From positions 717,501 through 781,500 of the forward strand of contig NC_069131.1 of NCBI RefSeq assembly GCF_026914265.1: a stretch of DNA of 64,000 bases, in the 5' to 3' direction. The number at the start of each line of letters is the position of its first letter. The stretch's first letter is position 1. Origin of the DNA: Mya arenaria (lineage: Eukaryota; Mollusca; Bivalvia; Myida; Myidae). A program made the translations under genes and the position numbers. The notes beneath the pieces are model-generated. The model made no database searches, was not told the origin of the DNA, and was given only the letters and a program-made list of their open reading frames with translations. This document shows positions 1 through 64,000 of this stretch, piece by piece.

Positions 1-831
1 TCCTCAGGCTACTTTGCCTTATGATTAAAACAAATGATTCAAAAATGATTGGTGAGTTAAAACATAATCAACCAAATAATCAGGGTTCAAAGATTATTCA
101 TTGGTTTATATAAAGTTCAGTCACTTATTTGATGAACGGCTTTCTCTTACGGGAGCTTTTTATTGGCGATGAAAAATACCTTAACCATTGTCAGCACGCA
201 GATCGCAATGCTCTGTGGCCAACGCAGTTGTCAGGTATGAGGCTTATTAGAGTTTCTAGCCACCAGCTCCGTTCACCAGACTAGATCGCAATGCTCTATG
301 TATCTGGCTACTTGAACTGGAACGCTAGATAACCCTATAGATGTCAAGTTCCTGGTGCCTTTTTATCCCACAGATCGCAATGCTCTGTGTTCAATAATAA
401 ACAACCAGAAGGTCAAGACTCTAATTATTTGCCTTCGAAAGACTATTTCCGGTTTACTGTTTGAAGTTACCTCGACGGCGGTCAAACACAGAATGAATCT
501 TTTAGCTAAGCGACGCGCTTATATACTCACCGGGCGGACGAGTTCATTATTAAGATGGGTAAAATGGGTATATTCCACTTTGCGAAAACATGAAGGGAGA
601 CAGCTTTATTTTTACTTATACTATTTATGAAAACAACTCCCGGTTAATTAATAATGTTTAACATGATTTCTTTAATTATTATTGTCGCTAATAAAATAAT
701 TGTATGGAATAAATAAGTCTAAAATGTAAAACTAACCTTTGAAATACACCGCCAGACATTTAACTTTGTAAGCGCAAATGGCTAATTTATAACAAAGGGC
801 GGTAATCGTGCAACTATGCGGTTACGCTACA
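1..831 (-). repeat. Left LTR (3' LTR of the minus-strand element), cut by window start
   Basis: This matches 3202-4032 at a constant offset of 3201. It ends in ...CTACA next to a purine-rich tract read on the minus strand (832-850). By comparison with the right copy, about 67 bp are missing beyond the window edge. A 91-aa open frame inside it (355-630) is repeated unchanged in the other LTR and has no recognisable domain, so I do not call it a gene. Confidence 0.9.
200..386. promoter_or_regulatory. Three 15-bp direct repeats inside the LTR
   Basis: AGATCGCAATGCTCT occurs at 200-214, 283-297 and 372-386, and again in the right LTR at 3401-3415, 3484-3498 and 3573-3587. The third copy is framed by CACAGA and TCTGTG, which makes a small inverted repeat. 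Spaced repeats of this kind in an LTR are often binding sites for a transcription factor or silencer, but the factor is unknown. Confidence 0.5.
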
Positions 832-1100
832 TTACCCACGCCTCCGAGTTCATGCGTCCCTGCATGATTAATAAAAAAAATGATCAAACAATGAACTTTT
901 TAATAAAACAAGTTTGTAACCACAAACAACATGATACAATATGCAATTTTAAAAATGCCAATAAAGTTCAACAATTTCTTAAAAAAAATGTTTCGTAAAT
1001 GTTAATGCCACAAATTCACAGTAATTTCAACACTCAAAAGATACAAACATTTTCACAACTTAACTATCTCATTTAAACAAATGTTATTCTGGTTCAGTTT

Positions 1101-3020
1101 CTACTTGTGTCCCCAAGTCAAATGAACATAGAATGACTGGCTGTCCTTCTGATCCTGCCCACAAATGTTGCATCTCAAAGGTGTATTTATATTGTGACAA
1201 CCAGCATGAGCGCAATACATGACGTAGTCCCGATACTGCATGCCACAATATTTGCAAACAAATTGCTTATTCTGATATATGTGTTCGTCTGGCTCATCAT
1301 TTTCCGTCTGCATCTCCTGATCCCTTGATTCTTTCTTGATCATTGCCAGATCTGTCTGTAATTCAGTCACAGACGTGCTCGGCTGAAAACAGAACTTCTT
1401 TAGCGTAGAGTTGGAAGGTACGTCGTTGCACTTCCTCTTGGAAGCAAACACTGGCTGGAACGTTTGTTTCCCGAAGATTCTGCCCTTGAAGATAACGTTG
1501 GTCTTCTCTATCTTCTGAATGTTCGACTTCCCTTTCTTCGCTACAAACTTCACCATTTCAATGCCCTTACTATTTTCCGCTGTAGGCACACTTGCTTTCT
1601 GCTTCTCAATACCGACTGCTGTCTCTTCCAGTGTGCTCTTTGGCTCTTTTTCGTCCTCCATGATCACATTTGGTTTACTTTCTAGCGACCGATCTGTTTC
1701 CCATTGAACTTCACTATCCTTCCCAACATGTACTTTTCGCACGTGTTTTAGCATGTATGCTCTTCTCTTGAACACTTTTGTACAACTCTCACAGTTGCGT
1801 CCGGCCCTTTTTATCCACCCCATGTCCTTATCCCTTTTCTCAGTTGTCTTTGTTTTCGCCGTTGTCCAACTGAATATCGACAGAACATAATCTTTTGTCC
1901 ATAAAGGTTCTTTTTTCTTACGCTGATCCGTTCTCGCATGGGATTGAGAAGCTTTAAGTTTGGAACAATTCCTTCTCAAATGGTACTTTGACCCACATTC
2001 AAAACATCTTTTGCCGTTGTCCCTGTTAAGACCCCATTTACGGTTACGGATGTTTCCACTCCAGCCGTAATTCATCTGTGAATGTGACGGACTACACATT
2101 TCCTTTGATAACTTATCAATAGTGCATTGCATTTCCTGCATTTTCTTCATAAGTTCCTTTACCTCATACGCTATCGTCGGACTTTCGTTTGCGGCAAGGC
2201 ACACCATTCCCTTGCTCTTTCTTTCTGCTCTGTAGAAAGCATCCAGCTCTACAGCATGACACACTGCGTCATTTAAATTCACAGGCCTAGCCTGTTTTAT
2301 CTTCAATCGCATATCCGAATTCACCAGAGCATCCACAAACTGCTCTTTTGCCAATGTCTCGCGCACGTCTACGGGTGCGCTTGGATATGCAAGGTTCGTC
2401 AGGCGACGAATATCTTGCCCTAACTCAGTAATCGACTCTGTAGCTCTCTGTCGCCTGTCCTTCAACTGAACTCTATATAGTTCAGTCTGGTTCGGAGGAG
2501 CGAACCTCTCCTCAAGGGCTTGAACTAAATCCGTGTAATTAGTTGTTTTCGTGGCCAAATTGCCATAAACACCTTGTGCCTGTCCTCGCAATGACACTGA
2601 CAAATAAAGACCCTTTTGGGTATCATCCCAGTCATTTAACATAGCACAAGCTTCAAAATGTGCCTTATAATCAGTCCAGGCACCATTTCCATCAAACGTA
2701 GCCGGCTTCATTACGGTACGTTTGTCACTACCTGCTGAGCCTCCAGCCCTTAATGGCTTACTTGTCTGGCTCTGACAAGTCTCAATTGCTTGTGGTTTCA
2801 GACCACCACAAACAGTACCGATCCCAGCTTCGTCGGTCCCAGGCTCACTTTTTAACCGTCGCCTCTCCGTGACAAAATCGGTCCTAGCAGGTGTTTGTAT
2901 GCCTACATCACATCGCGTGTGAACCCCTGGCTTAGGCGTGGAAGTCACAAGTCTGCTACTGGATAAATCAAAGTCCCGTTGTGCCATCGCTATTTCTTTC
3001 TCTAGTTGTAGAATGTGCAC
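1101..3020 (-). CDS. Gag-type protein fused to C2H2 zinc fingers, Ikaros/Hunchback-like C-terminus
   Basis: 639 residues. Residues about 103-265 resemble the capsid region of Ty3/Gypsy gag (PATFDG start, helical segments, ending in an AFYRAER stretch). Residues 285-308 form a short heptad-like helix. A CCHC nucleic-acid knuckle follows at C339, C342, H347 and C352. Three C2H2 fingers come next: C410/C413/H426/H431, C589/C592/H605/H609 and C617/C620/H633/H638. The last two match the paired fingers that end Ikaros and Hunchback proteins and mediate their dimerisation: the DYVMY...H-AGC-H core, a seven-residue linker, CNICG, then a final H. Basic stretches around 495-545 could be nuclear signals. 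In a normal element pol would lie here. The reading frame is open throughout. The gag assignment is firm; the origin of the fingers by capture of host sequence is inference. Confidence 0.82.
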   Translation of the reverse strand: MHILQLEKEIAMAQRDFDLSSSRLVTSTPKPGVHTRCDVGIQTPARTDFVTERRRLKSEPGTDEAGIGTVCGGLKPQAIETCQSQTSKPLRAGGSAGSDKRTVMKPATFDGNGAWTDYKAHFEACAMLNDWDDTQKGLYLSVSLRGQAQGVYGNLATKTTNYTDLVQALEERFAPPNQTELYRVQLKDRRQRATESITELGQDIRRLTNLAYPSAPVDVRETLAKEQFVDALVNSDMRLKIKQARPVNLNDAVCHAVELDAFYRAERKSKGMVCLAANESPTIAYEVKELMKKMQEMQCTIDKLSKEMCSPSHSQMNYGWSGNIRNRKWGLNRDNGKRCFECGSKYHLRRNCSKLKASQSHARTDQRKKKEPLWTKDYVLSIFSWTTAKTKTTEKRDKDMGWIKRAGRNCESCTKVFKRRAYMLKHVRKVHVGKDSEVQWETDRSLESKPNVIMEDEKEPKSTLEETAVGIEKQKASVPTAENSKGIEMVKFVAKKGKSNIQKIEKTNVIFKGRIFGKQTFQPVFASKRKCNDVPSNSTLKKFCFQPSTSVTELQTDLAMIKKESRDQEMQTENDEPDEHIYQNKQFVCKYCGMQYRDYVMYCAHAGCHNINTPLRCNICGQDQKDSQSFYVHLTWGHK

Positions 3021-3110
3021 CTCCCGCTTTTAATGTTCGATTTCTCTGGCCATCATCTCTCGTTCTTCATATAGGTCTGGCTGTGATGAAGTTCGATCCA
3101 TATTTAATGT

Positions 3111-3129
3111 GGCCCCACGTTGGGAGCCA
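3111..3129 (-). other. Primer-binding-like site of the LTR element
   Basis: On the minus strand the five bases after the LTR end are followed by TGGCTCCCAACGTGGGGCC, which has the TGG start and layout of a tRNA primer-binding site. It fixes the element's orientation. The priming tRNA was not identified. Confidence 0.6.
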
Positions 3130-3134
3130 AATTT

Positions 3135-4032
3135 TGTAACGTGCCGGCTGTATGTTCAATCGGTGTCGTAGAGCCTATATGGATCGCTCTTATATACATT
3201 TTCCTCAGGCTACTTTGCCTTATGATTAAAACAAATGATTCAAAAATGATTGGTGAGTTAAAACATAATCAACCAAATAATCAGGGTTCAAAGATTATTC
3301 ATTGGTTTATATAAAGTTCAGTCACTTATTTGATGAACGGCTTTCTCTTACGGGAGCTTTTTATTGGCGATGAAAAATACCTTAACCATTGTCAGCACGC
3401 AGATCGCAATGCTCTGTGGCCAACGCAGTTGTCAGGTATGAGGCTTATTAGAGTTTCTAGCCACCAGCTCCGTTCACCAGACTAGATCGCAATGCTCTAT
3501 GTATCTGGCTACTTGAACTGGAACGCTAGATAACCCTATAGATGTCAAGTTCCTGGTGCCTTTTTATCCCACAGATCGCAATGCTCTGTGTTCAATAATA
3601 AACAACCAGAAGGTCAAGACTCTAATTATTTGCCTTCGAAAGACTATTTCCGGTTTACTGTTTGAAGTTACCTCGACGGCGGTCAAACACAGAATGAATC
3701 TTTTAGCTAAGCGACGCGCTTATATACTCACCGGGCGGACGAGTTCATTATTAAGATGGGTAAAATGGGTATATTCCACTTTGCGAAAACATGAAGGGAG
3801 ACAGCTTTATTTTTACTTATACTATTTATGAAAACAACTCCCGGTTAATTAATAATGTTTAACATGATTTCTTTAATTATTATTGTCGCTAATAAAATAA
3901 TTGTATGGAATAAATAAGTCTAAAATGTAAAACTAACCTTTGAAATACACCGCCAGACATTTAACTTTGTAAGCGCAAATGGCTAATTTATAACAAAGGG
4001 CGGTAATCGTGCAACTATGCGGTTACGCTACA
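3135..4032 (-). repeat. Right LTR (5' LTR of the minus-strand element), complete
   Basis: 898 bp from TGTAACG to GCTACA, with the usual TG...CA ends on both strands. It matches the left copy over all visible bases. Confidence 0.9.
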
Positions 4033-25840: not shown

Positions 25841-25922
25841 TAGTACGGGTGGGGTTCGAACCCAGGCGGACATCGTCCATTGGAACTTAAGTCCAACGCC
25901 TTAACCACTCCGCCAACGTACT
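25841..25922 (-). pseudogene. Decayed tRNA-Leu (anticodon TAA)
   Basis: This 82-nt sequence aligns base for base with the intact tRNA at 26082-26163. It has the TTGGA/TCCAA anticodon stem and a CTTAAGT loop (TAA). Mismatches fall in the acceptor stem (position 7), the D stem and the first T-stem pair, so folding is weakened. A T-run follows the 3' end on the minus strand. It is probably a dead tandem twin, though weak function cannot be excluded. Confidence 0.7.
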
Positions 25923-26081: not shown

Positions 26082-26163
26082 TAGTACGGGTGGGGTTCGA
26101 ACCCACGCGGATATCGTCCATTGGAACTTGAGTCCAACGCCTTAACCACTCGGCCACCGTACT
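26082..26163 (-). tRNA. tRNA-Leu (anticodon CAA)
   Basis: 82 nt including the discriminator A. All seven acceptor pairs form (AGTACGG with CCGTACT). The D arm is GCC-GAGTGGTTAA-GGC, the anticodon stem TTGGA/TCCAA with loop CTCAAGT, and the long class II variable arm is typical of Leu. The T arm is GTGGG-TTCGAAC-CCCAC. There is no intron. A TTTT terminator lies just beyond the 3' end on the minus strand. It decodes UUG. Confidence 0.92.
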
Positions 26164-46298: not shown

Positions 46299-49200
46299 AC
46301 ACTCCAAGCACGCCGTAAAGCCTTGTTTCTATATGTTACATTGACAACAAAATAGTTATTTACAATTTATATCCATCTTTCAATGGGTTTGCCAGTGTAA
46401 AACTCCGCCTTTCTCTGACATAATGGACAGTTTTCGGCTTTTCAACCTTACTTAGTATCCAAATCAACCGACGACAGCATATTCAGACTGACTTATGATT
46501 AATTACTTAGGTTCGTCTCCCTTTAATCCTTCTCCCAGGCATATATGCGAACGGATACACAAACTGAACATTATCAACATAAGCATTTGAATCTTAACAA
46601 CTGATGCTGCGATGTGGACAAAGTCCGATCAAATAATAAGTGTCTATAGTGGGTGAGACAAGGGTAATGCAGAGGTCCCGTAATCATGTCCTGCTCTATA
46701 GCTTAACTCATTTTATTTTTTTCTTCTTTTTCTACTTGTCTTTATTTCACGATTCAAGCATTTATTTTATTTTATTTTTTCCTGCTTGTATATGTTTTTT
46801 TTAAAATAATCAATAATGTTTTATATTTCAAATTGTTAATGGCGCAGCGTATGGGCGTTTAAATCCATTGTTTTAACAGTCACACATCATTAAGGAAAAT
46901 TATAGTATGATTAATATGGTTTTCCCAATGATCACAAGTAGAATAACAACATTTTATTATTATCTTCCCTCTTTCTGAATCTCGTTTTTAGCTCTGCCAC
47001 TTCTAGTTATTCGATTGTTCCACCAAGTTGACATAAAGCTGACATTTATATTACTTCCGCTTAAATCGGACTCATCAAAGGTTACTCCCGCTTAAATCTG
47101 TCTGATTAAAGTTACTTCCGCTTAAATCTGACTCATTAAAGGTTACTTCCGCTTAAATCTGACTCATTAAAGGTTACTTCGGCTTAAATCTGACTCATTA
47201 AAGGCTACTTCCGCTTAAATCAGACACATTAAAGGTTCATTCCGCTAAAATCAGATTCATTAAAGGTTCATTCCGCTTAAATCAGACCCATTAAAGGTTA
47301 CTTCCGCTAAAATCTGACTCATTAAAGGTGTCACGTAACGCCAACGCTCACTTAACTTTCGTGATAGTTCGTTCAGTAACCAACCAACAACTGTTCAAGT
47401 GTTCTAAGTCTTTATTGTTCAACGTTCTTTCTAAGTATAATAATCAGTATATAATACAGCATGACATTTAAGGTAATCCCACATCCTAACTGCCGTCCAT
47501 TAAGGACCCAAGGCCGCGTTGCTTGCCTGGCCTAAGCCAACTCTGTTTTCACATCCCAAATCATCTCTTTTATACTAATTTGTACTAATTTGTTGTCTAC
47601 CTATGACAGCTTTACAACCACAGGAATACACGTTTTTGTAATTAACATGACCATTTTGTACATTTGTACCAGGTCGGCTGTCAACCATCTTCATATTCAA
47701 ATGACAATCAAATATGCCCTACATTACTAAACATGCAGTATGTAGACACATATCCATTTAATTAAATCTTAATTATATCTTAAATATAACGTATTACGTC
47801 ACATTCTATTCTGTTACGTGACATTCGTCCTTTTTTTATCAAGATTTTTAAGAAAATCTTTGCGTCAACCCCAAACAATGGTTATAATTGAATAGATAAA
47901 TAAAATCGTAAGTAAATATGTTTCTCAACCCCAAACAGGTAAATAATAATAAAAAAATAAAAAAGTAATTCCGACAAAAAAAAAAAAAAAAAAGATACGC
48001 AAAAGAAAATCTGTGCCTAAATCCCAAACAATGATGATCAAGTTGTATTTTCGACAAAAAATACGCAAAAGAAAATCTGTGCCTAAATCCCAAACAATGA
48101 TATCAAATTGTATAGATACGTATAGATAGATGACATATTGGCTATTTTAGGTAAAAGTTCATGGTTTAGTTCGCTTGATCTTAAATCAGGATATTTCCAA
48201 ATGAAACTTGCAGAACAAGATAAAGAAAAGACTGCTTTTACGACCGGATTCCGAGGTCTTTATGAGTTTAATACTTCTCCTTTCGGACTCTGTGGAACTC
48301 CTGGACGATTCCAAGAATTACTTAACCAAGTATTAGAAGGCTGTGAAAGTTTTGCCATTGCGTATTTAGACGATATCTTAATATTTTCAAAAACAAAGGA
48401 AGAACATTTGGTACATCTCCAAAAAGTACTAAACCACCTGAAACGAAAAAGGGGTGAGTGACAATTTCGGTTTTATTGGATAACATAGAGAAATGGCAGA
48501 ACCAGATATTAGTAGAATTTTTCAAAATTTAGGGGAACAATTACAAAATGTTTCGGCTGTAGTAGGCACTCAGAGTATAGCACAAGTAGTACCATATTTT
48601 GACGGGGATACGAAACAATTCAAATATTGGATAAAAAATATTGAAAAATACGGCGTTCTTACGGGTCTAGATAGCGAAAGGTTAAAAATGGTAGCTTATC
48701 AGTCTAGCAAAAATGCAGTTAGTGATTTTATACAAAGATATCTAAAAAGTAACCCTGATGATAACTGGGAAACACTAAAGGGGGAATTAAAATCAAGATT
48801 TTCGGAAGTACAAGATCCACAACATGCTTTCTGTCTATTAAGGGCAATAAAACAGACACCAGGGGAAAATGTTCAAATATATGCAGAACGACTTTTAACG
48901 ATGGCGGAAGAAGCTTTTGTAGGTCATAACGGCGACCTAATAGTTATTGAAAGGCAACTAATAGGGTTCTTTATTGATGGTTTGGCACATGATTTCCTAA
49001 AAATGAAAGTAATGCGAGAAAATCCAGATACTCTTCAAGCCGCGGTGCGTAGTGCAACAAATGAACAAAATCTTAGAACTAGATTTAATCTTCGAATAGG
49101 TAATGCGCCGAGTCAAAATAGCAGGCATGATATTAGCATCAATGATAGGCATGAACCAATGGAAATTGATCATTTAAGACCAAATAAATACTGCATATAC

Positions 49201-52200
49201 TGTAGACGGCCCGGTCATAACATAAAAGATTGTAAATCAAGAAAACGCGAAATAAATGCCATAGGTAAAGAATTTCAAGTTCAAAATAACCAAATTAGCG
49301 ATAGGCCAAATAACGATTGGAAATCAAAGATTGAATGTTGGAATTGTGGGAAAATGGGTCATTTTCAAAGGGAATGTCGAAATGGCAGGAGACCATATTA
49401 CCCCTCACGTAATCAAAAAAACTAGGAGTCTCTTATCATAAAGAAGTCGGTGATAGGAGAAAACATATGTCAACATTCACTATAGCAATTTGTGGGAATC
49501 CAAATTCATGTCTGATAAAAATAGGAAACATTTCTTTTAGAAGTTTAGTAGACACAGGTGCTGAAGTTAGTTTAATTAGTCGAAAGGCCCTTAGGTTATT
49601 GCAAAACAAACCTAAACTCTCAAATTAACGCGCTCATTTACAATCAGTTAACGGTAATTCGCTACAAGTTGATGGCTCAGTACAATTAAAATTTAAAATC
49701 GGCCGAGTTCACAAAGTGCACGAATTTTATGTTGTCCCAAACATAAATAGAAATATCATTTTAGGCAGGGATTTTTTATCAAAAAATGGGGTAAGACTCT
49801 ATTTTGATTTAGAATGTATGCGCATAGATGACAGTTATGTACCTTTGGAAGAAGATTTACATATTGCCTCAATTGTGAGACTTCAAAAATGTACTGTCTT
49901 GAAACCACAAACACGGTATTTACTAAATGGTAAAGTAAAATCAAATCCCAATATAGATACAAAAAAATGTTATGAGATTAAAAACATAAACAATTCATTT
50001 TTAGATTCTGAACCAGGCCTTGTAATTGTTAATTCCGTGGTTAAATTTCAAAGCAAACGTACATTTCCAATTGCAATTATAAATAACACTCATAAAACAA
50101 TTAAGTTAAGGAAAGGCAGTGCTATAGGCAAAATTGAAAAATTAGAGGCTCAAGAGATTGCTTCTGTTCAAAATACTTCGGTTAAAGGTAATCCAATGAC
50201 TGATGATGAAATTTTGACAGACTTACGAGTACCCAAAGATCATGCTGAAACGATCTTACCAATTATAATGCAAAATCGAAAACGTTTCGCTAAAAACGAC
50301 TCCGATCTTACTCAAACTGACACCGTTACCATGACAATCGAGACAGGAGATCACCCCCCAATTAAATTACGACCATACCGCACACCTTTGAATAATAGGA
50401 AAATTATTGACAAGGCAATTGACGAAATGCTTGAGGCAAAGGTAATTAGGAAGTCACATAGTCCTTGGAGTTTTCCCATTGTAATAGTAGATAAAAAAGA
50501 TACGCAAAAGAAAATCTGTGCCTAAATCCCAAACAATGATGATCAAGTTGTATTTTCGACAAAAAATACGCAAAAGAAAATCTGTGCCTAAATCCCAAAC
50601 AATGATATCAAATTGTATAGATACGTATAGATACCGTCCCTTTTTAATGCAAGATTTTCTTTTCGTAAGCAATAGAAAGTAAACTGACACGTTATTTGTC
50701 AAAATGTCTGACATAATATAGACTAATTGGTAATTAGCCCTCAGGTAATTAATAAACATAGTTAACAATTAGAAAATAACACTGCAGATTGAGTACAAGT
50801 AATTAACACTGACAGTACTGTTGTCAAATTTGGTAATTAGTCAATGTTTTATGTAGCGCTGTTTTTCATGTTATCATTCTGAAGACAGGGAATCATCGTT
50901 GTTGTTGTTGCTGCTGCCGTGTTGTTGTAGATGTAGAGTTTATAGCCAAGGGGTTGTTTGATTGTAGAATGTCCCCACCGACTCGAAATGTTCTGCCATT
51001 ATACTACTGCTAATTCCGGAAGTGTACTTAGATATATGTGTGCAAGTGTTCATGTTATTGAAGATGCTAACGATCTCAAGTTGGTGTTGTCCATCACACA
51101 GGAATCATCACGGTCCTAAAGACTTGATCATGTGACGTCAAGCCGAGCACAGGTCATACGAGAATGTGTGCTTAGCTCCTCTGGATATTCCGAAGTGTAA
51201 CCAATTGGTTAGCACATCACATACGCAATACCAGAATATAGTTCGATCCTTTATGAAACACCGATGACCACTTAACACAATATCGCCACTAGGTATATTA
51301 TCTCGATATCCGCTGAAGAATAATGTTGATATTGACTGTTCGTATCACGTGACATATTACCTGTACTTTTACCTTTCATTGACATAGGTGTTGCTATTAC
51401 CATGAAATTTTGTGTTGATATTTTCAAGCAGGCTTATATTTTGAAAGTGGCCCCATTTATAATTAATTACTGTATCTGTGCGTAAGTATTCGTATGTTTG
51501 ATTTAATGAATGTTTGACCTAAGTTTTTTTTTTTGTGAAACGTTTTGTTTTTATGAACAGCATTTTATTTTATTAAGAACCTTTTTATGCAATATTTTAC
51601 AAAGCTTATATGTTAGCTCATAAGTAGTCCATTATTTTAAGAAAACTAATACATAAGTGATTCAATTAATTTATTAAATAACTCACACCCTAATGTGACT
51701 TTACAGGAGTCCAACAATTTTGTTGAAATTCAATATCTTGAACGTATCATCTCCAATCACTTTTAAGAAACCTGGTCTTTCTTGACCACTATCTTTGTTT
51801 ATCTTTGTACAACTTTGTACATCTTCACAGTTATAAGAAAGCTAAACTCTAGCTTAACATGTTACCATCATGCTTATCATCGGATAACTTACAACTTATT
51901 AATTGATTCATTAGTTTTACCAAACTAATCTGTGAGTTACTTAAATAATTTAATTAGATTACTTACTACCTAACAAATAATTTTATTAGTGATTTCGAAA
52001 TTGAAAATTACTTGCCGTATTCAGGCGATACACTTATATAATGACATCTAAGAAATTACTTTTCGTTTTGCACGCTTTCTCTCTCAGACCTTACTATGAT
52101 CCAAACAATGATTTATTTATATGATTTTTACAACTTTAAAACCATCACCAATTTACTCAAAATTATATAAAATGATATATTGACAAAATACTACAATTAT

Positions 52201-55200
52201 TTACAAGACTATAAACTTACTTAATTTTAATGATTTCATATCATTAATGTCAAGTTAATTACAGGTAACATTGCATTCATTTACCTATCTGATGTGTTTG
52301 ACAATTATTTGCAGTTACATGACAACTGAAGTAATGAAACCTGCCATTTGTCTCCTTCTTCGACATAAAAAATATTTCATTTTGTATTATCGTCAGTGTT
52401 TGCACTAAACCCTGAGTATAAGTCATTATTTTTTTTTTGTATTTATGCAACTTTCATTAATGTTAGACCTGCTAAATAAGTTTACTCAAATTCTTTTAAT
52501 TACATTTCTTTCCATGTTAATTATTCAATTAATGTCTTTAAATGACTTAGTTTTCTTTTTCATCTAGTTATTCAATAATGTACTTAAATGATTCTTCGTT
52601 TGCATTTAACAACGTTTTTTCACACCTGTTTTACTTTTTTTTATCGAATTTCTCAATATTTTTATCTTTGTTACCTTAAATACTCATTCTTTAGTTTATT
52701 CTTATTTAAATCAAATGGTTTTATTGTACTTAATAATGTAGAACGTTGTTAAGTCAGAAATTAGATTACTTAGGGGTTCTTTCAAAAAAACAGCTTTGCT
52801 CTGATTGCATTTATTATCCAAAACTTTAAAATTTTGCCCCGTTAAATATCCCAAAATTATAGCAACACATGTCATATCTAGGCAAGAAATACAAAGTAAT
52901 AAAATGTCACTACCTTTTGTCCTGTGGCCTGGTCGCGCTGCAATGTCCATAGTCACTCGAACCGCAGTTGTCATCATGTACCTTTTTCTTTTACGTTTCA
53001 AATGTGATCCAATAGTTTTCAGTACTTCGCCGTTGTGTTCCACGTCAACCCTGTTCTTGAATATCTTCGGTCAGCAGGCGCCAAACTTTTACGTGTCACG
53101 TAACGCCAACGCTCACTTAACTTTCGTGATAGTTCGTTCAGTAACCAACCAACAACTGTTCAAGTGTTCTAAGTCTTTATTGTTCAACGTTCTTTCTAAG
53201 TATAATAATCAGTATATAATACAGCATGACATTTAAGGTAATCCCACATCCTAACTGCCGTCCATTAAGGACCCAAGGCCGCGTTGCTTGCCTGGCCTAA
53301 GCCAACTCTGTTTTCACATCCCAAATCATCTCTTTTATACTAATTTGTACTAATTTGTTGTCTACCTATGACAGCTTTACAACCACAGGAATACACGTTT
53401 TTGTAATTAACATGACCATTTTGTACATTTGTACCAGGTCGGCTGTCAACCATCTTCATATTCAAATGACAATCAAATATGCCCTACATTACTAAACATG
53501 CAGTATGTAGACACATATCCATTTAATTAAATCTTAATTATATCTTAAATATAACGTATTACGTCACATTCTATTCTGTTACGTGACAAAGGTTACTTCC
53601 GCTTAAATCTGACTCATTAAAGGTTACTTCCGCTTAAATTAGACTCATTAAAGGTTACTTCCGCTTAAATCAGACTCATTAAAGGTTACTTCCGCTTAAA
53701 TCAGACTCATTAAAGGTTACTTCCGCTTAAATCTGTCTGATTAAAGTTACTTCCGCTTAAATCAGACTCATTAAAGGTTACTTCCGCTTAAATCTGTCTG
53801 ATTAAAGTTACTTCCGCTTAAATCAGACTCATTAAAGGTTACTTTAGCATAAATCAGACTCCTTCTGCTTAAATCAGACTCATTAAAGGTTACTTCCGCT
53901 GAAATCAGATTCATTAAAGGTTACTTCCGCTTAAATCAGACTCATTAAAGGCTGCTTCCGCTTAAATCTGACTCATTAAACGTTACTTCCGCTTAAATTT
54001 GACTCATTAAAGGTTACTTCCGCTTAAATCAGACTCATTAAATGCTGCTTCCGGTTAAATCTGACTCATTAAAGGTTACTTCCGCTTAAATTAGATTCAT
54101 TAAAGGTTACTTCCGCTTAAATCAGACTCATGAAAGGTTACTTTAGCATAAATCAGACTCAATAAAGGTTACTTCCGCTTAAATCTGACTCATTAAAGGT
54201 TACTTCCGCTTAAATCAGACTCATTAAAGGCTGCTTCCGCTTAAATCTGACTCATTAAAAGTTACTTCCGCTTAAATCTGACTCATTAAAGGTTACTTCC
54301 GCTTAAATCTGACTCATTAAAGGTTACTTCCGCTTAAATCTGACTCACCAAAGGTTACTTCCGCTTAAATCGGACTCAAAAAAGGTTACTTCCGCTTAAA
54401 TCTGACTCATTAAAGGTTACTTCCGCTTAAATCAGACTCATAAAAGGTTACTTCCGCTTAAATCTGACTCATTTAAAGTTACTTCCGCTTAAATCTGACT
54501 CATTAAAGGTTACTTCCGCTTAAATCTGACTCATTAAAGGTTACTTCCGCTTAAATCAGACTCATTAAAGGTTTATTCCGCTTAAATCAGACACATTAAA
54601 GGTTCATTCCGCTTAAATCAGATTCATTAAAGGTTCATTCCGCTTAAATCTGACTCATTAAAAGTTACTTCCGCTTAAATCAGACTCATTAGAGGTTACT
54701 TCGGCTTAAATCTGACTCATTAAAGGTTACTTCCGTTTAAATCTGACTCATTAAAGGTTACTTCCGCTTAAACTGACTCATTAATGGTTACTTCCGCTTA
54801 AATCAGACTCATTAAAGGTTACTTCCGCTTAAATCTGACTCATTAAAGGTTACTTCCGCTTAAATCTGACTCATTAAAGGTCACTTCCGCTTAAATCAGA
54901 CTCATTAAAGGTTACTTCCGCTTAAATCTGACTCATTAAAGGTTACTTCCGCTTAAATCTCACTCATTAAAGGTTACTTCCGCTTAAATCTGACTCATTA
55001 AAGGTTGCTTCCGCTTAAATCTGACTCATTAAAGGTTTCTTCCGCTTAAATTAGATTCATTAAAGGTTACTTCCGCTTAAATCAGACTCATTAAAGGTTA
55101 CTTCCGCTTAAATCAGACTCCTTCTGCTTAACTCAGACTCATTAAAGGTTACTTCCGCTGAAATCAGATTCATTAAAGGTTTATCCGCTTAAATCAGACT

Positions 55201-58200
55201 CATTAAAGGCTGCTTCCGCTTAAATCTGACTCATTAAACGTTACTTCCGCTTAAATCTGACTCCTTAAAGGTTACTTCCGCTAAAATCAGACTCATAAAA
55301 GGTTACTTCCGTTTAAATCTGACTCATTAAAGGTTACTTCCGCTTAAACTGACTCATTAATGGTTACTTCCGCTTAAATCAGACTCATTAAAGGTTACTT
55401 CCGCTTAAATCTGACTCATTAAAGGTTACTTCCGCTTAAATCTGACTCATTAAAGGTTACTTCCGCTTAAATCTCACTCATTAAAGGTTACTTCCGCTTA
55501 AATCTGACTCATTAAAGGTTACTTCCGCTTAAATCTGACTCATTAAAGGTTACTTCCGCTTAAATCAGACTCATTAAAGGTTTATTCCGCTTAAATCAGA
55601 CACATTAAAGGTTCATTCCGCTTAAATCAGATTCATTAAAGGTTCATTCCGCTTAAATCTGACTCATTAAAAGTTACTTCCGCTTAAATCAGACTCATTA
55701 GAGGTTACTTCGGCTTAAATCTGACTCATTAAACGTTACTTCCGCTTAAATCAGACTCATTAAAGGTTACTTCCGCTTAAATCAGACTCATTAAAGGTTA
55801 CTTCCGCTTAAATCAGACTCATTAAAGGTTACTTCCGCTTAAATCTGTCTGATTAAAGTTTCTTCCGCTTAAATCAGACTCATTAAAGGTTACTTTAGCA
55901 TAAATCAGACTCAATAAAGGTTACTTCCGCTTAAATCTGACTCATTAAAGGTTACTTCCGCTTAAATTAGATTCATTAAAGGTTACTTCCCCTTAAATCT
56001 GACTCATTAAAGGTTACTTCGGCTTAAATCTGTCTGATTAAAGTTACTTCCGCTTAAATCAGACTCATTAAAGGTTACTTTAGCTTAAATCAGACTCAAT
56101 AAAGGTTACTTCCGCTTAGATCTGACTCATTAAAGGTTACTTCCGCTTAAATTAGACTCCTTCTGCTTAAATCTGACTCATTAAAGGTTACTTCCGCTTA
56201 AATCTGGCTCATTAAAGGTTACTTCCGCTTAAATCAGACTCATTAAAGGTTACTTCCGCTTAAATCTGACTCATTAAAGGTTACTTCCGCTTAAATCAGA
56301 CTCCTTCTGCTTAAATCTGACTCATTAAAGGTTACTTCCGCCTAAATCTGACTCATTAAAGGTTACTTCCGCTTAAATCAGACTCATTAAAGGTTACTTC
56401 CGCTTAAATCAGACTCATTAAAGGCTACTTCCGCTCAAATCTGACTCATTAAACGTAACTTCCGCTTAAATCTGACTCATTAAAGGTTACTTCCGCTTAA
56501 ATCTGACTCATTAAAGGTTACTTCCGCTTAAATCTGACTCATTAAAGGTTACTTCCGCTTAAATCTGACTCATTAAAGGTTACTTCCGCTTAAATCAGAC
56601 TCATTAGAGGTTACTTCGGCTTAAATCTGACTCATGAAAGGTTACTTCCGCTTAAATCAGACTCATTAAAGGTTACTTCCGCTTAAATCTGACTCATTAA
56701 AGGTTACTTCCGCTTAAATCAGACTCATTAAAGGTTACTTCCGCTTAAATCTGACTCATTAAAGGTTACTTCCGCTTAAATTAGATTCATTAAAGGTTAC
56801 TTCCGCTTAAATCAGACTCATTAAAGGTTACTTCCGCTTAAATCAGACTCCTTCTGCTTAACTCAGACTCATTAAAGGTTACTTCCGCTGAAATCAGATT
56901 CATTAAAGGTTTATCCGCTTAAATCAGACTCATTAAAGGCTGCTTCCGCTTAAATCTGACTCATTAAACGTTACTTCCGCTTAAATCTGACTCCTTAAAG
57001 GTTACTTCCGCTAAAATCAGACTCATAAAAGGTTACTTCCGTTTAAATCTGACTCATTAAAGGTTACTTCCGCTTAAACTGACTCATTAATGGTTACTTC
57101 CGCTTAAATCAGACTCATTAAAGGTTACTTCCGCTTAAATCTGACTCATTAAAGGTTACTTCCGCTTAAATCTGACTCATTAAAGGTTACTTCCGCTTAA
57201 ATCTCACTCATTAAAGGTTACTTCCGCTTAAATCTGACTCATTAAAGGTTACTTCCGCTTAAATCTGACTCATTAAAGGTTACTTCCGCTTAAATCAGAC
57301 TCATTAAAGGTTTATTCCGCTTAAATCAGACACATTAAAGGTTCATTCCGCTTAAATCAGATTCATTAAAGGTTCATTCCGCTTAAATCTGACTCATTAA
57401 AAGTTACTTCCGCTTAAATCAGACTCATTAGAGGTTACTTCGGCTTAAATCTGACTCATTAAAGGTTACTTCCGCTTAAATCAGACTCATTAAAGGTTAC
57501 TTCCGCTTAAATCAGACTCATTAAAGGTTACTTCCGCTTAAATCAGACTCATTAAAGGTTACTTCCGCTTAAATCTGTCTGATTAAAGGTTACTTCAGCT
57601 TAAATCAGACTCAATAAAGGTTACTTCCGCTTAGATCTGACTCATTAAAGGTTACTTCCGCTTAAATTAGACTCCTTCTGCTTAAATCTGACTCATTAAA
57701 GGTTACTTCCGCTTAAATCTGACTCATTAAAGGTTACTTTAGCTTAAATCAGACTCAATAAAGGTTACTTCCGCTTAGATCTGACTCATTAAAGGTTACT
57801 TCCGCTTAAATTAGACTCCTTCTGCTTAAATCTGACTCATTAAAGGTTACTTCCGCTTAAATCTGACTCATTAAAGGTTACTTCCGCTTAAATCAGACTC
57901 ATTAAAGGTTACTTCCGCTTAAATCTGACTCATTAAAGGTTACTTCCGCTTAAATCAGACTCCTTCTGCTTAAATCTGACTCATTAAAGGTTACTTCCGC
58001 CTAAATCTGACTCATTAAAGGTTACTTCCGCTTAAATCAGACTCATTAAAGGTTACTTCCGCTTAAATCAGACTCATTAAAGGCTACTTCCGCTCAAATC
58101 TGACTCATTAAACGTAACTTCCGCTTAAATCTGACTCATTAAAGGTTACTTCCGCTTAAATCTGACTCATTAAAGGTTACTTCAGCTTAAATCTGACTCA

Positions 58201-61192
58201 TTAAAGGTTACTTCCGCTTAAATCTGACTCATTAAAGGTTACTTCCGCTTAAATCAGACTCATTAGAGGTTACTTCGGCTTAAATCTGACTCATGAAAGG
58301 TTACTTCCGCTTAAATCAGACTCATTAAAGGTTACTTCCGCTTAAATCAGACTCATTAAAGGTTACTTCCGCTTAAATCAGACTCATTAAAGGTTACTTC
58401 CGCTTAAATCTGACTCATTAAAGGTTACTTCCGCTTAAATCAGACTCATTAAAGGTTACTTCCGCTTAAATCAGACTCATTAAAGGTTACTTCCGCTTAA
58501 ATCAGACTCCTTCTGCTTAACTCAGACTCATTAAAGGTTACTTCCGCTGAAATCAGATTCATTAAAGGTTTATCCGCTTAAATCAGACTCATTAAAGGCT
58601 GCTTCCGCTTAAATCTGACTCATTAAACGTTACTTCCGCTTAAATCTGACTCCTTAAAGGTTACTTCCGCTAAAATCAGACTCATAAAAGGTTACTTCCG
58701 TTTAAATCTGACTCATTAAAGGTTACTTCCGCTTAAACTGACTCATTAATGGTTACTTCCGCTTAAATTAGACTCATTAAAGGTTACTTCCGCTTAAATC
58801 TGACTCATTAAAGGTTACTTCCGCTTAAATCTGACTCATTAAAGGTTACTTCCGCTTAAATCTCACTCATTAAAGGTTACTTCCGCTTAAATCTGACTCA
58901 TTAAAGGTTACTTCCGCTTAAATCTGACTCATTAAAGGTTACTTCCGCTTAAATCAGACTCATTAAAGGTTTATTCCGCTTAAATCAGACACATTAAAGG
59001 TTCATTCCGCTTAAATCAGATTCATTAAAGGTTCATTCCGCTTAAATCTGACTCATTAAAAGTTACTTCCGCTTAAATCAGACTCATTAGAGGTTACTTC
59101 GGCTTAAATCTGACTCATTAAAGGTTACTTCCGCTTAAATCAGACTCATTAAAGGTTACTTCCGCTTAAATCTGTCTGATTAAAGTTTCTTCCGCTTAAA
59201 TCAGACTCATTAAAGGTTACTTTAGCATAAATCAGACTCAATAAAGGTTACTTCCGCTTAAATCTGACTCATTAAAGGTTACTTCCGCTTAAATTAGATT
59301 CATTAAAGGTTACTTCCCCTTAAATCTGACTCATTAAAGGTTACTTCCGCTTAAATCTGTCTGATTAAAGTTACTTCCGCTTAAATCAGACTCATTAAAG
59401 GTTACTTTAGCTTAAATCAGACTCAATAAAGGTTACTTCCGCTTAGATCTGACTCATTAAAGGTTACTTCCGCTTAAATTAGACTCCTTCTGCTTAAATC
59501 TGACTCATTAAAGGTTACTTCCGCTTAAATCTGACTCATTAAAGGTTACTTCCGCTTAAATCAGACTCATTAAAGGTTACTTCCGCTTAAATCTGACTCA
59601 TTAAAGGTTACTTCCGCTTAAATCAGACTCCTTCTGCTTAAATCTGACTCATTAAAGGTTACTTCCGCCTAAATCTGACTCATTAAAGGTTACTTCCGCT
59701 TAAATCAGACTCATTAAAGGTTACTTCCGCTTAAATCAGACTCATTAAAGGTTACTTCGGCTTAAATCTGACTCATTAAACGTTACTTCCGCTTAAATCT
59801 GACTCATTAAAGGTTACTTCCGCTTAAATCTGACTCATTAAAGGTTACTTCAGCTTAAATCTGACTCATTAAAGGTTACTTCCGCTTAAATCTGACTCAT
59901 TAAAGGTTACTTCCGCTTAAATCAGACTCATTAAAAGTTACTTACATTTAAAAGTTTCTTCAACAAACAAATTTACTTGTTATAGATATATTTTGGAAAA
60001 GTGAAGTAATTGTTATAAAAGATACCCATTTAAAAAAGATTGTTAGTACTAATTTTATATTTTTCCAAATGTGCTCAAATTCGTAATCTAGACAGTCATA
60101 AACTGTTGTGCAATTTGTTTAATTATATTTATAAACGGGCAATTTTGAATTGAATTGATGAAAGAAGAAAAATGTTTAAAAGAATATTTCTTTTTTCTTT
60201 TTGGAACTGCTAAAGTATAACAGTCCGTTTATTAGATCATAAAAGCAACAATGTCACAGGTAATAAAGTAATACATAGACAAAGATTTAAAAAAATATAT
60301 ATACACTCAAAGTATCTATTGAATGTACTTAAGGTTTTTTATAAAGTCATTTAGGAATCGGTAATTGACATTTTTTATTCGTAGGTATGTTTCTGAAGCA
60401 ATCAGATCGTAATATAAATAAGACAATATGTTTATGGGCTTCGTTCTCCGGTCGCATATGAAGTATGTTTTATAAATACAGTAACATATTTGACTTAAAA
60501 CAATATTAACACAGTTGTATTCTTTTTGGTGTATCTTATATCCTATTACAATATATTTGATATCATTAAACATTTTCTTTATACCACATTTTTTAAATAA
60601 GGCATTTATCGTCGACCAAACATTGGATAATGAAGAACAATGGATAAAAAAATGTTGATAATCTTCAACGTCCTTGCAACACATACACAGGGGACTGTCT
60701 CTCAATTTCCATGTAAATAAATTTAAGTTAGTCGCCACTAAATTATTTAATAATTTAATTTTGAATTGTTTAACTTTGTGGTCAACGATAGATTCATGAA
60801 CTATATAATACCATGATTTCCACTCGATACTTTGTTGTACATGTTTATTCCAGTATCTATTGATATACGGTTTTTCGAAAATCTGCCGGACAAAGAGCTG
60901 ATATATTTCCTTGTTTGTCATTTCGTTAATTAGTTTGTTCCCAAACCTTATTAAAAGTTTTGAATATTTCTTATTAAACCTTTAAATTATGGTTTCTCAT
61001 CAAAAACACGTATTTAAATATAAATACTTATTGGTATTACGTATTATGAAGCAAAACAAATGTTTGTTACAATTTCAGACATCCTCAGTGATCAGTAAGC
61101 CCACAGACGATACTGATGAAACTGGCTCCGGTCTCTGTGACAGTCATGTGCTGGCAACCAGCATGTCACGTGCAAGTCTTCCACTGGATTGA
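44037..61192 (+). CDS. Gene copy C: paralogue of copy B with a 15-kb satellite-bearing intron, 124 aa
   Basis: Exons 44037-44183, 45746-45830, 46005-46033 and 61079-61192. All borders are AG/GT, the joined 375 nt are open, and the phases equal those of copy B. Exon 1 (49 aa) aligns with copy B's first exon (MASGIGRNISSEDLDLDLC..., shared spaced residues such as I-S-x-E-x-L-D and KAE/EAE). Exon 2 gives ALDHIDSLRKCFEAKIG and again ends TPGRK. Exon 3 again reads DSGMES. Exon 4 ends SRASLPLD. Intron 3 (46034-61078) holds the 31-bp satellite, a 6.26-kb LTR element and a LINE insertion. Whether such an intron is spliced efficiently is open. Family unknown; presumably soluble. Confidence 0.6.
44908..45214. 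mobile_element. TTAA MITE in intron 1 of copy C, right end interrupted by a SINE
   Basis: It starts TTAA-AGTTGCACTCGCACAG like the copies at 12780 and 13540. Its interior shares their CATTTTGTCTTGGAATGAG and ATCTGATATTTTGTC phrases. The right terminus is replaced by the SINE that follows. Confidence 0.6.
45215..45425 (+). mobile_element. tRNA-derived SINE
   Basis: A Pol III A box is present (TAGCGCAGTGG, 45228-45238), and a B box (GAGTTCGATTCC) starts about 45270. After the tRNA head comes a body with CTGCGGGCACTCCGGTTTCC, a phrase common to many invertebrate SINEs. It lies inside intron 1 of copy C. Confidence 0.75.
46207..46299. repeat. (AAT)n microsatellite
   Basis: About 30 near-perfect AAT repeats in intron 3 of copy C. 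Confidence 0.95.
46835..47050 (+). repeat. Copy C: intron 3 segment paralogous to copy A
   Basis: Colinear with 17241-17454 (GGCGCAGCGTATGG, then TTTTCCCAATGATCACAA and CTAGTTATTCGATTGTTC). It leads directly into the first satellite unit. Confidence 0.75.
47051..47328. repeat. 31-bp satellite array, left part
   Basis: About nine monomers with core CTTCCGCTTAAATC and the joint GACTCATTAAAGG, somewhat more diverged than the main block. The array is interrupted by the LTR element. Confidence 0.95.
47329..47823 (-). repeat. Left LTR of the satellite-embedded element
   Basis: 495 bp, with an 11-bp perfect inverted repeat at its own ends. Confidence 0.92.
47994..48461 (+). mobile_element. Ty3/Gypsy reverse-transcriptase fragment, displaced ahead of gag
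   Basis: It contains SSLDLKSGYFQMKLAEQDKE and, later, the catalytic YLDDILIFSKT. In a standard element this segment would follow protease, not precede gag. It begins with a repeated GATACGCAAAAGAAAATCTG segment that recurs at 50498. Confidence 0.8.
48493..49425 (+). CDS. Ty3/Gypsy gag (fossil), 310 aa
   Basis: An open frame with a helical capsid-like region (about residues 30-190), then two CCHC knuckles: CIYCRRPGHNIKDC and CWNCGKMGHFQREC. Such a gag packages element RNA. It lies on the plus strand, opposite to the outer LTR element. It is not closely similar to the gag-zinc-finger protein at 1101-3020. Confidence 0.85.
   Translation: MAEPDISRIFQNLGEQLQNVSAVVGTQSIAQVVPYFDGDTKQFKYWIKNIEKYGVLTGLDSERLKMVAYQSSKNAVSDFIQRYLKSNPDDNWETLKGELKSRFSEVQDPQHAFCLLRAIKQTPGENVQIYAERLLTMAEEAFVGHNGDLIVIERQLIGFFIDGLAHDFLKMKVMRENPDTLQAAVRSATNEQNLRTRFNLRIGNAPSQNSRHDISINDRHEPMEIDHLRPNKYCIYCRRPGHNIKDCKSRKREINAIGKEFQVQNNQISDRPNNDWKSKIECWNCGKMGHFQRECRNGRRPYYPSRNQKN
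49467..50525 (+). mobile_element. Ty3/Gypsy protease and start of reverse transcriptase (fossil)
   Basis: The protease signature LVDTGAEVSLIS is at about 49540-49575, followed by a GRDFLSKNG segment typical of the protease end. The N-terminal reverse-transcriptase region then reaches SPWSFPIVIVDKKD near 50460-50500. It ends at the repeat shared with 47994. Broken. Confidence 0.8.
50498..50638. repeat. Direct repeat of 47990-48128
   Basis: About 140 bp, essentially the same at both places, itself containing two copies of a GCAAAAGAAAATCTGTGCC unit. It brackets the plus-strand gag-protease block. Confidence 0.85.
50639..53093. other. Non-coding interior of the outer LTR element
   Basis: Long AT-rich sequence without pol domains on either strand, consistent with a large non-autonomous element. 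The primer-binding-like site is at its right end. Confidence 0.6.
53094..53588 (-). repeat. Right LTR of the satellite-embedded element
   Basis: 495 bp, matching the left LTR. It is followed directly by AAGG and the next satellite unit. Confidence 0.92.
53585..59945. repeat. 31-bp satellite array, main block with higher-order structure
   Basis: About 205 tandem monomers with core CTTCCGCTTAAATC, in two main variants (AATCTGACTC and AATCAGACTC) plus rarer 30-bp and truncated forms. A distinctive CTTCTGCTTAACTCAGACTC variant appears at 55121, 56851 and 58510, with the same succession of variants after it each time, so a higher-order unit of about 1.66-1.73 kb is present. No open frame of note. 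Confidence 0.95.
60193..60961 (-). mobile_element. Young 5'-truncated LINE with target-site duplication
   Basis: It is flanked by GAATATTTCTT on both sides (60182-60192 and 60962-60972); copy A has a single such site region. The minus strand carries an uninterrupted 201-aa frame (60921-60316) with the C-terminal knuckle CMCCKDVEDYQHFFIHC of a LINE ORF2. It is a different family from the TTGAC-tailed LINE. The 3' end is A/G-rich. Confidence 0.8.
60973..61078 (+). other. Copy C: conserved block upstream of exon 4
   Basis: Third copy of the 106-bp block, with an ATG at 60989 and the frame open into exon 4. Confidence 0.6.
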
Positions 61193-63474: not shown

Positions 63475-63508
63475 ATTGCCCCCGGTGTGGGGCTCGAACT
63501 CACAACGG
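63475..63508 (-). mobile_element. SINE head fragment at the satellite junction
   Basis: The minus strand reads GTTGTGAGTTCGAGCCCC, a Pol III B box in tRNA-like context. It is cut at GGACTCA, which is also part of the satellite unit. Confidence 0.5.
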
Positions 63509-64000
63509 ACTCATTAAAGGTTACTTCCCCTTAAATCTGACTCATTAAAGGTTACTTCCGCTTAAATCTGTCTGATTAAAGTTACTTCCGCTTAAATCAG
63601 ACTCATTAAAGGTTACTTTAGCTTAAATCAGACTCAATAAAGGTTACTTCCGCTTAGATCTGACTCATTAAAGGTTACTTCCGCTTAAATTAGACTCCTT
63701 CTGCTTAAATCTGACTCATTAAAGGTTACTTCCGCTTAAATCTGACTCATTAAAGGTTACTTCCGCTTAAATCAGACTCATTAAAGGTTACTTCCGCTTA
63801 AATCTGACTCATTAAAGGTTACTTCCGCTTAAATCAGACTCCTTCTGCTTAAATCTGACTCATTAAAGGTTACTTCCGCCTAAATCTGACTCATTAAAGG
63901 TTACTTCCGCTTAAATCAGACTCATTAAAGGTTACTTCCGCTTAAATCAGACTCATTAAAGGCTACTTCCGCTTAAATCTGACTCATTAAACGTTACTTC
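63505..64000. repeat. 31-bp satellite, second array (continues beyond the window)
   Basis: It resumes in the same order of variants as 59310-59770 (CTTCCCCTTAAATCTG, then the CTGTCTGATTAAAG form, then CTTTAGCTTAAATC, and so on). Confidence 0.95.

Follow-up and report, generated by a model that had tools for sequence, protein, structure and literature searches.

Bivalve Ty3/gypsy elements combine a gag core, a CCHC motif, long terminal repeats (LTRs) and 4-bp direct repeats, and all of these recur in the family of an element that we describe from a 64,000-nucleotide stretch of Mya arenaria DNA (contig NC_069131.1, positions 717,501 to 781,500; the window). The window element differs from them in lacking pol and in having its gag fused to a block of zinc fingers. 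Non-autonomous LTR elements such as plant TR-GAG likewise have LTRs and gag without pol, and are presumably moved in trans; what the window element adds is an accessory finger block from its own full-length parent. Chromoviruses carry a chromodomain at the end of integrase, a plausible chromatin tether, and the finger block is similarly an extra module behind integrase, although consisting here of zinc fingers with a histone H3-like start. No chromodomain was found by Pfam, up to an E value of 1, in three of these integrase extensions (L011, L017, L019); the matches above cutoff were zf-C2H2 models in L011, with nothing in L017 or L019. Steamer, a bivalve LTR retrotransposon, has LTRs of 153-219 bp starting TGTAACA and a Leu-tRNA primer site, TGGTGTCAGAAG (PMC8905726), whereas the window element has LTRs of 898-900 bp starting TGTAGCG and another primer site, and so lacks the characters that define Steamer. 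The term ‘zinc finger’ is absent from the main texts of PMC6238403, PMC8556966, PMC8905726 and PMC10294476, as are the terms ORF3 and additional ORF from those of them in which they were looked for. In the literature searched, mostly outside subscription journals, we found no finger ORF, Ikaros-type pair or H3-like start in an LTR element, nor any description of an accessory module after integrase in bivalve Ty3/gypsy elements.

We consider it very probable that relatives with the order integrase, finger block, LTR existed first, and that one deletion in such a relative produced a gag-finger derivative, of which the window element is a young, non-autonomous, multi-copy example of Ty3/gypsy type. 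All of its features lie on the reverse strand. An open frame of 639 amino acids from a GTG codon (1101..3020), supported by translation, Pfam and genome copies, encodes gag with its CCHC knuckle, then a C2H2 finger and finally an Ikaros/Hunchback-type terminal finger pair, with no pol; window positions 1-831 and 3202-4032 are identical at 831 of 831 positions and are thus LTRs. The frame and the LTRs thereby uphold the initial annotation, which had described gag and a CCHC knuckle passing into C2H2 fingers in an LTR element without pol. The family has the LTR pair and short target duplication of Ty3/gypsy elements (the duplications coming from three other copies) and a CCHC-bearing gag related to gypsy gag-pol; protease, reverse transcriptase (RT), RNase H and integrase are absent from the window element, and because these pol domains were deleted it is a derivative rather than an autonomous member.

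The origin of the fusion can be read from longer relatives in the same genome. Four loci (L010, L011, L012 and L014) have integrase followed by the finger block with the pair and then an LTR, the pair being cut short in L012, and their LTRs are respectively 96.6%, 91.7%, 97.7% and 96.6% identical to that of the window. A single frame spans integrase, finger and pair to the stop in L011; the frames of L010, L012 and L014 are broken, L010 and L014 look like mutual copies, and a decayed locus, L013, has integrase then block in the same order. Window DNA from 3132 to 1918/1917 matches the gag of three such elements, L016, L022 and L023, at 92.2-93.2%, and from 1922 on it matches the pol-end of L010, L011, L012 and L014 at 75-86%, the two matches overlapping by 6 bp, CGTAAG (1917..1922). 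With the gag match running to 1917/1918 and that to the pol-end beginning at 1922, one deletion fused the end of gag to the last pol codons; the short element arose by this one internal deletion at the CGTAAG microhomology, with the frame into the finger block kept. Comparison with the relatives places the last pol codons (KEPLWTKDYVLSIF) and a degraded splice-acceptor-like tract, with its CAG at 1872-1870, at 1869..1919. The junction peptide, KEPLWTKDYV, resembles the pol C-terminus of the database relative P0132 (...RRKPVWAKDYVF) and scores 12.5 bits, against at most 10.9 in 2000 shuffles of the stretch. Such a deletion would have arisen by template switching during reverse transcription, and the enzymes that move the copies would come from full-length relatives with shared LTRs.

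The terminal pair (residues 585-639, 1104..1268, with the pair proper at 589-638) was likened to the C-terminal pair of Ikaros and Hunchback in the initial annotation, and our searches agree. When residues 585-639 were compared with all six frames of the 1.216-Gb assembly, 28 rows resulted, the best 150 of 274 candidates being scored; 21 of these, at 67-100% identity, were assigned to the element family, and the other seven were 32-40% identical. The best matches outside the family, two on C12 with 44.8 bits each (L058, L059), one on C4 with 42.3 (L060) and one on C10 with 40 (L061), lie in reading frames that terminate in an Ikaros/Hunchback-looking pair (e.g. CPYCKISFGDCIMYTMHMGYH...CNMCGDTCKDRVEFFLHISRAAHH), and were called Ikaros/Hunchback-type genes by eye from that pair; they rank above ordinary C2H2 fingers, which come next with 33.9, 31.7 and 30.8 bits. 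In phmmer the pair scored 47 bits to the comparator pair of IKZF1, 45 to that of IKZF3 and 35 to that of Hunchback, against 19-24 bits to five generic pairs. As judged by sequence comparison, this confirms a pair of Ikaros/Hunchback type, with a likeness beyond chance resemblance. The element shares with Ikaros/Hunchback factors a similar pair spacing and key residues, but carries its pair on a retrotransposon protein with one C2H2 finger upstream, the N-terminal DNA-binding finger cluster being absent. A profile built from the window pair together with three comparator pairs found no Ikaros-type pair in 172 fetched database relatives of the element (best other score 11 bits), and a protein-database search with the pair region gave no candidate, though that search was word-filtered and says little. 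The element protein matched generic fingers only in the PDB; an IKZF1 C-terminal pair likewise retrieved other fingers only, Ikaros-family ones among them, so the PDB is no test of Ikaros likeness. The two C12 loci, at C12:42036556 and C12:43071436, are about 1 Mb apart and share nearly one 494-residue frame, which may reflect either duplication of the gene or the way the assembly was put together.

How the pair came to the family is a separate matter. We lean towards a full-length ancestor having long ago acquired, as the end of its ORF3, an Ikaros/Hunchback-type pair from the host: the pair is present in the L010/L011/L012/L014 subfamily, while two other full-length families, L017-type and L019-type, end ORF3 otherwise, and the best non-element matches are three host genes of that type. 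The pair is, however, about equally similar to three different host genes (scores 136, 126 and 122), its roughly 50 residues are too few to fix a donor, and an ordinary finger pair may have converged on this form. Its identity to the pairs of the three host genes is 20/50, 19/47 and 19/49 (about 40%), so that any capture is old and belongs to the lineage of the full-length parent. Recent capture of the fingers from the host is rejected on the same figure.

We read the finger block as an undescribed accessory module, an ORF3, of bivalve Ty3/gypsy elements, made up of an H3-like N-terminus, one or more C2H2 fingers, a basic stretch and, in one subfamily, the Ikaros/Hunchback-type pair. The block opens with MANTKVTERK, MANTKQTPRK or MAKTKVTARK in L010, L011, L012, L014 and another two families (L017, L018, L021; L019, L020), which carry it within long open frames of 1941-1997 amino acids and end it with a stretch other than the pair (L017-type ...GTIRPEDITFKVSENGEVDLEIDIQ, L019-type ...GLIKPDNIIIEVSEDGMLQVSFETEK). 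A pyrimidine-rich tract and CAG/G stand 6-7 nt before the Met codon (L013 has CTG there); in none of three loci checked do the first 2100 nt hold a second acceptor-like site of this kind, the search pattern having missed L017, L018 and L021, whose sites were found by separate reading. The pattern CAGGT-N3-7-ATGGCNAANACNAARNNNACN, built from the same loci it was searched against, has 13 genome matches, all in the block (nine on loci that were read; the other four, on C1, C4 and two on C10, coincide with block matches), and its reversed control has none.

Against the H3 start MARTKQTARKST, a comparison picked after seeing the sequence, so that its scores are not clean probabilities, the block starts score 41 (L019, L020), 37 (L017, L018, L021), 31 (L010, L011, L014), 28 (L012) and 26 (L013), with up to 9 of 12 residues as in H3 and with Met followed by A-x-T-K-x-T-x-R-K; L032, another locus joining gag and block, starts MARTKSTPWK and scores 34. 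When the 12 letters of the L019 and L017 starts were shuffled 20,000 times each, no shuffle scored as high as the start itself. Among 126,546 twelve-residue windows of the 172 database proteins the top score, 26, falls on the corresponding position of P0002, and the next, 25, lies elsewhere; the starts of P0106 (23), P0107 (22) and P0019 (22) fall among unrelated windows. When Met was left out (126,718 windows), unrelated stretches came top and no database ORF3 start was among the best 15.

It is doubtful, but deserves weighing, that the block is a mere C-terminal tail of integrase, much as the chromodomain is in chromoviruses, and that no free form of it is produced. The integrase frame does pass through the block without a stop in six loci (L011, L017-L021), which were picked for their long frames; it is broken in L010, L012 and L014, the acceptor-like site lies 6-7 nt before a Met at which the H3-like order exactly begins, and the pol of P0132 ends 8 residues after the same motif. 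The loci thus show both an open frame from integrase and an acceptor-like site before the block. Under the ORF3 reading, spliced RNA would give the module as a protein of its own, and some families would make it as an extension of integrase as well; it would tether the element's nucleoprotein complex to chromatin and dimerise via the terminal pair. In the window family ACG (1862-1860), just downstream of the degraded acceptor tract, occupies the place of the Met codon of the full-length relatives, so that the block is readable only behind gag; with the separate start lost, tethering and dimerising would act only as a gag fusion. More tentatively, and with somewhat less than an even chance in our estimation, the spliced ORF3 product of bivalve Ty3/gypsy elements might mimic the H3 tail after Met removal, recruit readers or writers of that tail and so steer integration or disturb silencing, with derivatives repeatedly fusing the module to gag or gag-protease.

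Related tails are found in database relatives. The gag search gave 237 database proteins at E 1e-3 or better, and the named sources among the best 120 are bivalves (Mytilus, Ruditapes, Mercenaria, Ostrea, Pinctada), a symbiont metagenome-assembled genome (MAG) and an invertebrate metagenome, the symbiont-MAG matches presumably carrying host contigs. No relative was found in the viral contigs scanned, and the bacterial and archaeal contigs gave a single decayed sequence, L001, a contaminant of the MAG of a mussel symbiont. Full-length database relatives have protease, RT and integrase domains. Of the 172 fetched, 22 bear a related tail behind gag, protease or (P0025) a piece of integrase, ten of them having built the tail profile; a C2H2 finger is present by pattern in the tail of 19 (not in P0047, P0155 or P0162), and no RT domain is listed in any of the 22. 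All 13 proteins of 1399-1636 residues lack the tail, and several of these end before the end of pol. A quick gag tree held 117 cores after near-identical rows (13 tail rows among them) had been dropped, 165 of 173 proteins having given a core. On it the ten tail rows, counting the window, require 9 changes, of which starred branches force at least 7; shuffled labels matched or beat this in 110 of 500 cases, which shows that the tail is not clustered on the gag tree. Gag and tail distances correlate over the ten rows (r 0.45, p 0.012) only as long as the Mytilus near relatives are kept in. With a motif profile narrower than one of the whole post-finger part, the window protein scores 8.5 bits against at most 6.4 for shuffles.

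A second set of fusions (L025, L026, L027, L029, L030) joins gag-protease at the acceptor to an L019-type block; the two parts meet at the acceptor's AG/GT, with CAGGT on both sides, which fits splicing and a microhomology deletion equally well. No block is in the frame read in L028, L031, L033, L035 or L036; L033 has it in a different frame, and in the other four it follows 0.9-1.3 kb downstream. In a Mytilus edulis gene model, P0121, a gag-protease-finger block is joined to an ankyrin-repeat protein, which may be an artefact of the model.

The short element itself is repeated in the 1.2-Gb assembly. Nine places, the window included, match over the full 639 residues, and eight of these have no internal stop, so that the search for further copies suggested by the initial annotation shows the fusion to be shared, with LTR pairs identical in several copies. 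Identity between the LTRs of a copy is 900/900 in L003, 889/889 in L005, 899/899 in L006, 900/900 in L007 and L008, and 897/898 in L009; L007 and L008 form a tandem with a common LTR, and only one LTR was found for L004. Direct repeats of 4 bp flank L003 (GTTA), L006 (CTCG) and L009 (CTAC), and the LTR query has at least 40 genome matches at 93% or more among the best 40 of 312 candidates scored.

The gag-finger frame could in principle be a neutral by-product and its copies passengers, which we regard as unlikely. In seven copies (eight were compared, the ninth, L034, being left out, and L009, which has a stop, was dropped from this set) silent and replacement codon columns number 16/32 in gag, 10/26 in the middle and 3/0 in the pair. 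Replacement columns exceed silent ones in gag and middle, and the window copy has an early stop, as neutrality would allow; on the other side, eight of nine copies hold the 639 residues without an internal stop, the pair protein is identical in eight of the nine, and the ratios of replacement to silent differences (pN/pS), summed over 28 pairs of eight copies, are 0.40 for gag, 0.67 for the middle and 0.23 for the pair. The exon capture proposed in the initial annotation, in which the short element itself would have picked up behind its gag the 3′ exon of an Ikaros-type gene of the host, accounts for the likeness of the pair to host pairs but is very improbable, as the block with the pair already adjoins integrase in full-length relatives, the junction is an internal deletion lying in pol and not at the pair, and identity to host pairs is so low.

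Several points weigh against the explanation that we favour, a deletion derivative of elements with an accessory ORF3. The gag of the window copy is broken at codon 24 by TAA (3032-3030). When L009 is added, silent and replacement columns become 18/37 in gag, 15/37 in the middle and 5/8 in the pair, and the selection numbers are small throughout: seven copies with three silent changes in the pair are few, and the 28 pairs are not independent. An AlphaFold model of the pair alone failed, with a mean predicted local distance difference test (pLDDT) score of 49. The correlation of gag and tail distances disappears (r -0.10, p 0.66) without the Mytilus near relatives, and a profile of the post-finger part does not place the window protein above shuffles. 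In the full-length relatives of the window family we infer RT and RNase H from spacing and from integrase; splicing of the RNA, a free ORF3 protein, its dimerisation and its tethering to chromatin are likewise putative.

In other copies the LTRs measure 898-900 bp (TGTAGCG...GTTACA); the 5′ LTR, of 898 bp, is therefore placed at 3135..4032, its boundaries taken from L003 and L006, and the 3′ LTR (1..831) is truncated by the window start, the flank beyond being masked in the assembly. Short motifs around CAGATCGCAATGCTCTGTG are repeated in the LTR (168-222, 340-394 and their LTR partners) and are perhaps regulatory. After the 5′ LTR lies a sequence read as primer-binding-site-like, TGGCTCCCAACGTGGGGC (3112..3129), which may resemble tRNA-Lys(CUU), and L003 and L006 have a one-base variant (TGGCGCCC...) at the matching place; a polypurine-tract-like GAACTCGGAGGCGTGGGTAA (832..851) precedes the 3′ LTR. 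As a correction to the initial annotation, the natural gag start is an ATG at 3101, upstream of the GTG-started frame, with the in-frame TAA interrupting gag between them (3030..3101); the open frame is 684-690 residues in the eight other full copies and 642 in the window copy. Pfam Retrotrans_gag matches residues 141-207 with 23.5 bits, just under the curated cutoff of 24.1. In the CCHC nucleocapsid knuckle, seen in the translation at residues 339-352 (1965..2006), C339, C342 and C352 are invariant in 12 aligned proteins and H347 nearly so. The C2H2 finger at residues 410-431 (1728..1793) scores 19.1 bits with zf-C2H2, under the cutoff of 25.2, and is above cutoff in the relative L011.

Elsewhere in the window, two further gypsy-like coding stretches on the forward strand (48126-50519; RT, then gag and protease-RT) are 23-46% identical to relatives, and arrays of one 66-bp unit lie beside them at 47990-48113 and 50495-50618. 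A 31-bp satellite (AAAGGTTACTTCCGCTTAAATCTGACTCATT) forms a long array at 53588-59943, coinciding with strong GC skew at 52-60 kb, and recurs at 47051-47329 and 63508-64000. Two adjoining tRNA-Leu genes, with anticodons TAA and CAA, lie on the reverse strand at 25841-25922 and 26082-26163.

The accessory module, which recurs joined to gag or gag-protease in elements that have lost pol, replaces an account of a one-off exon capture with a family-wide one. The H3-like start, if it is functional, would make these LTR retrotransposons a case of histone mimicry, and through the Ikaros-type pair a mobile element could dimerise or contact host regulators.
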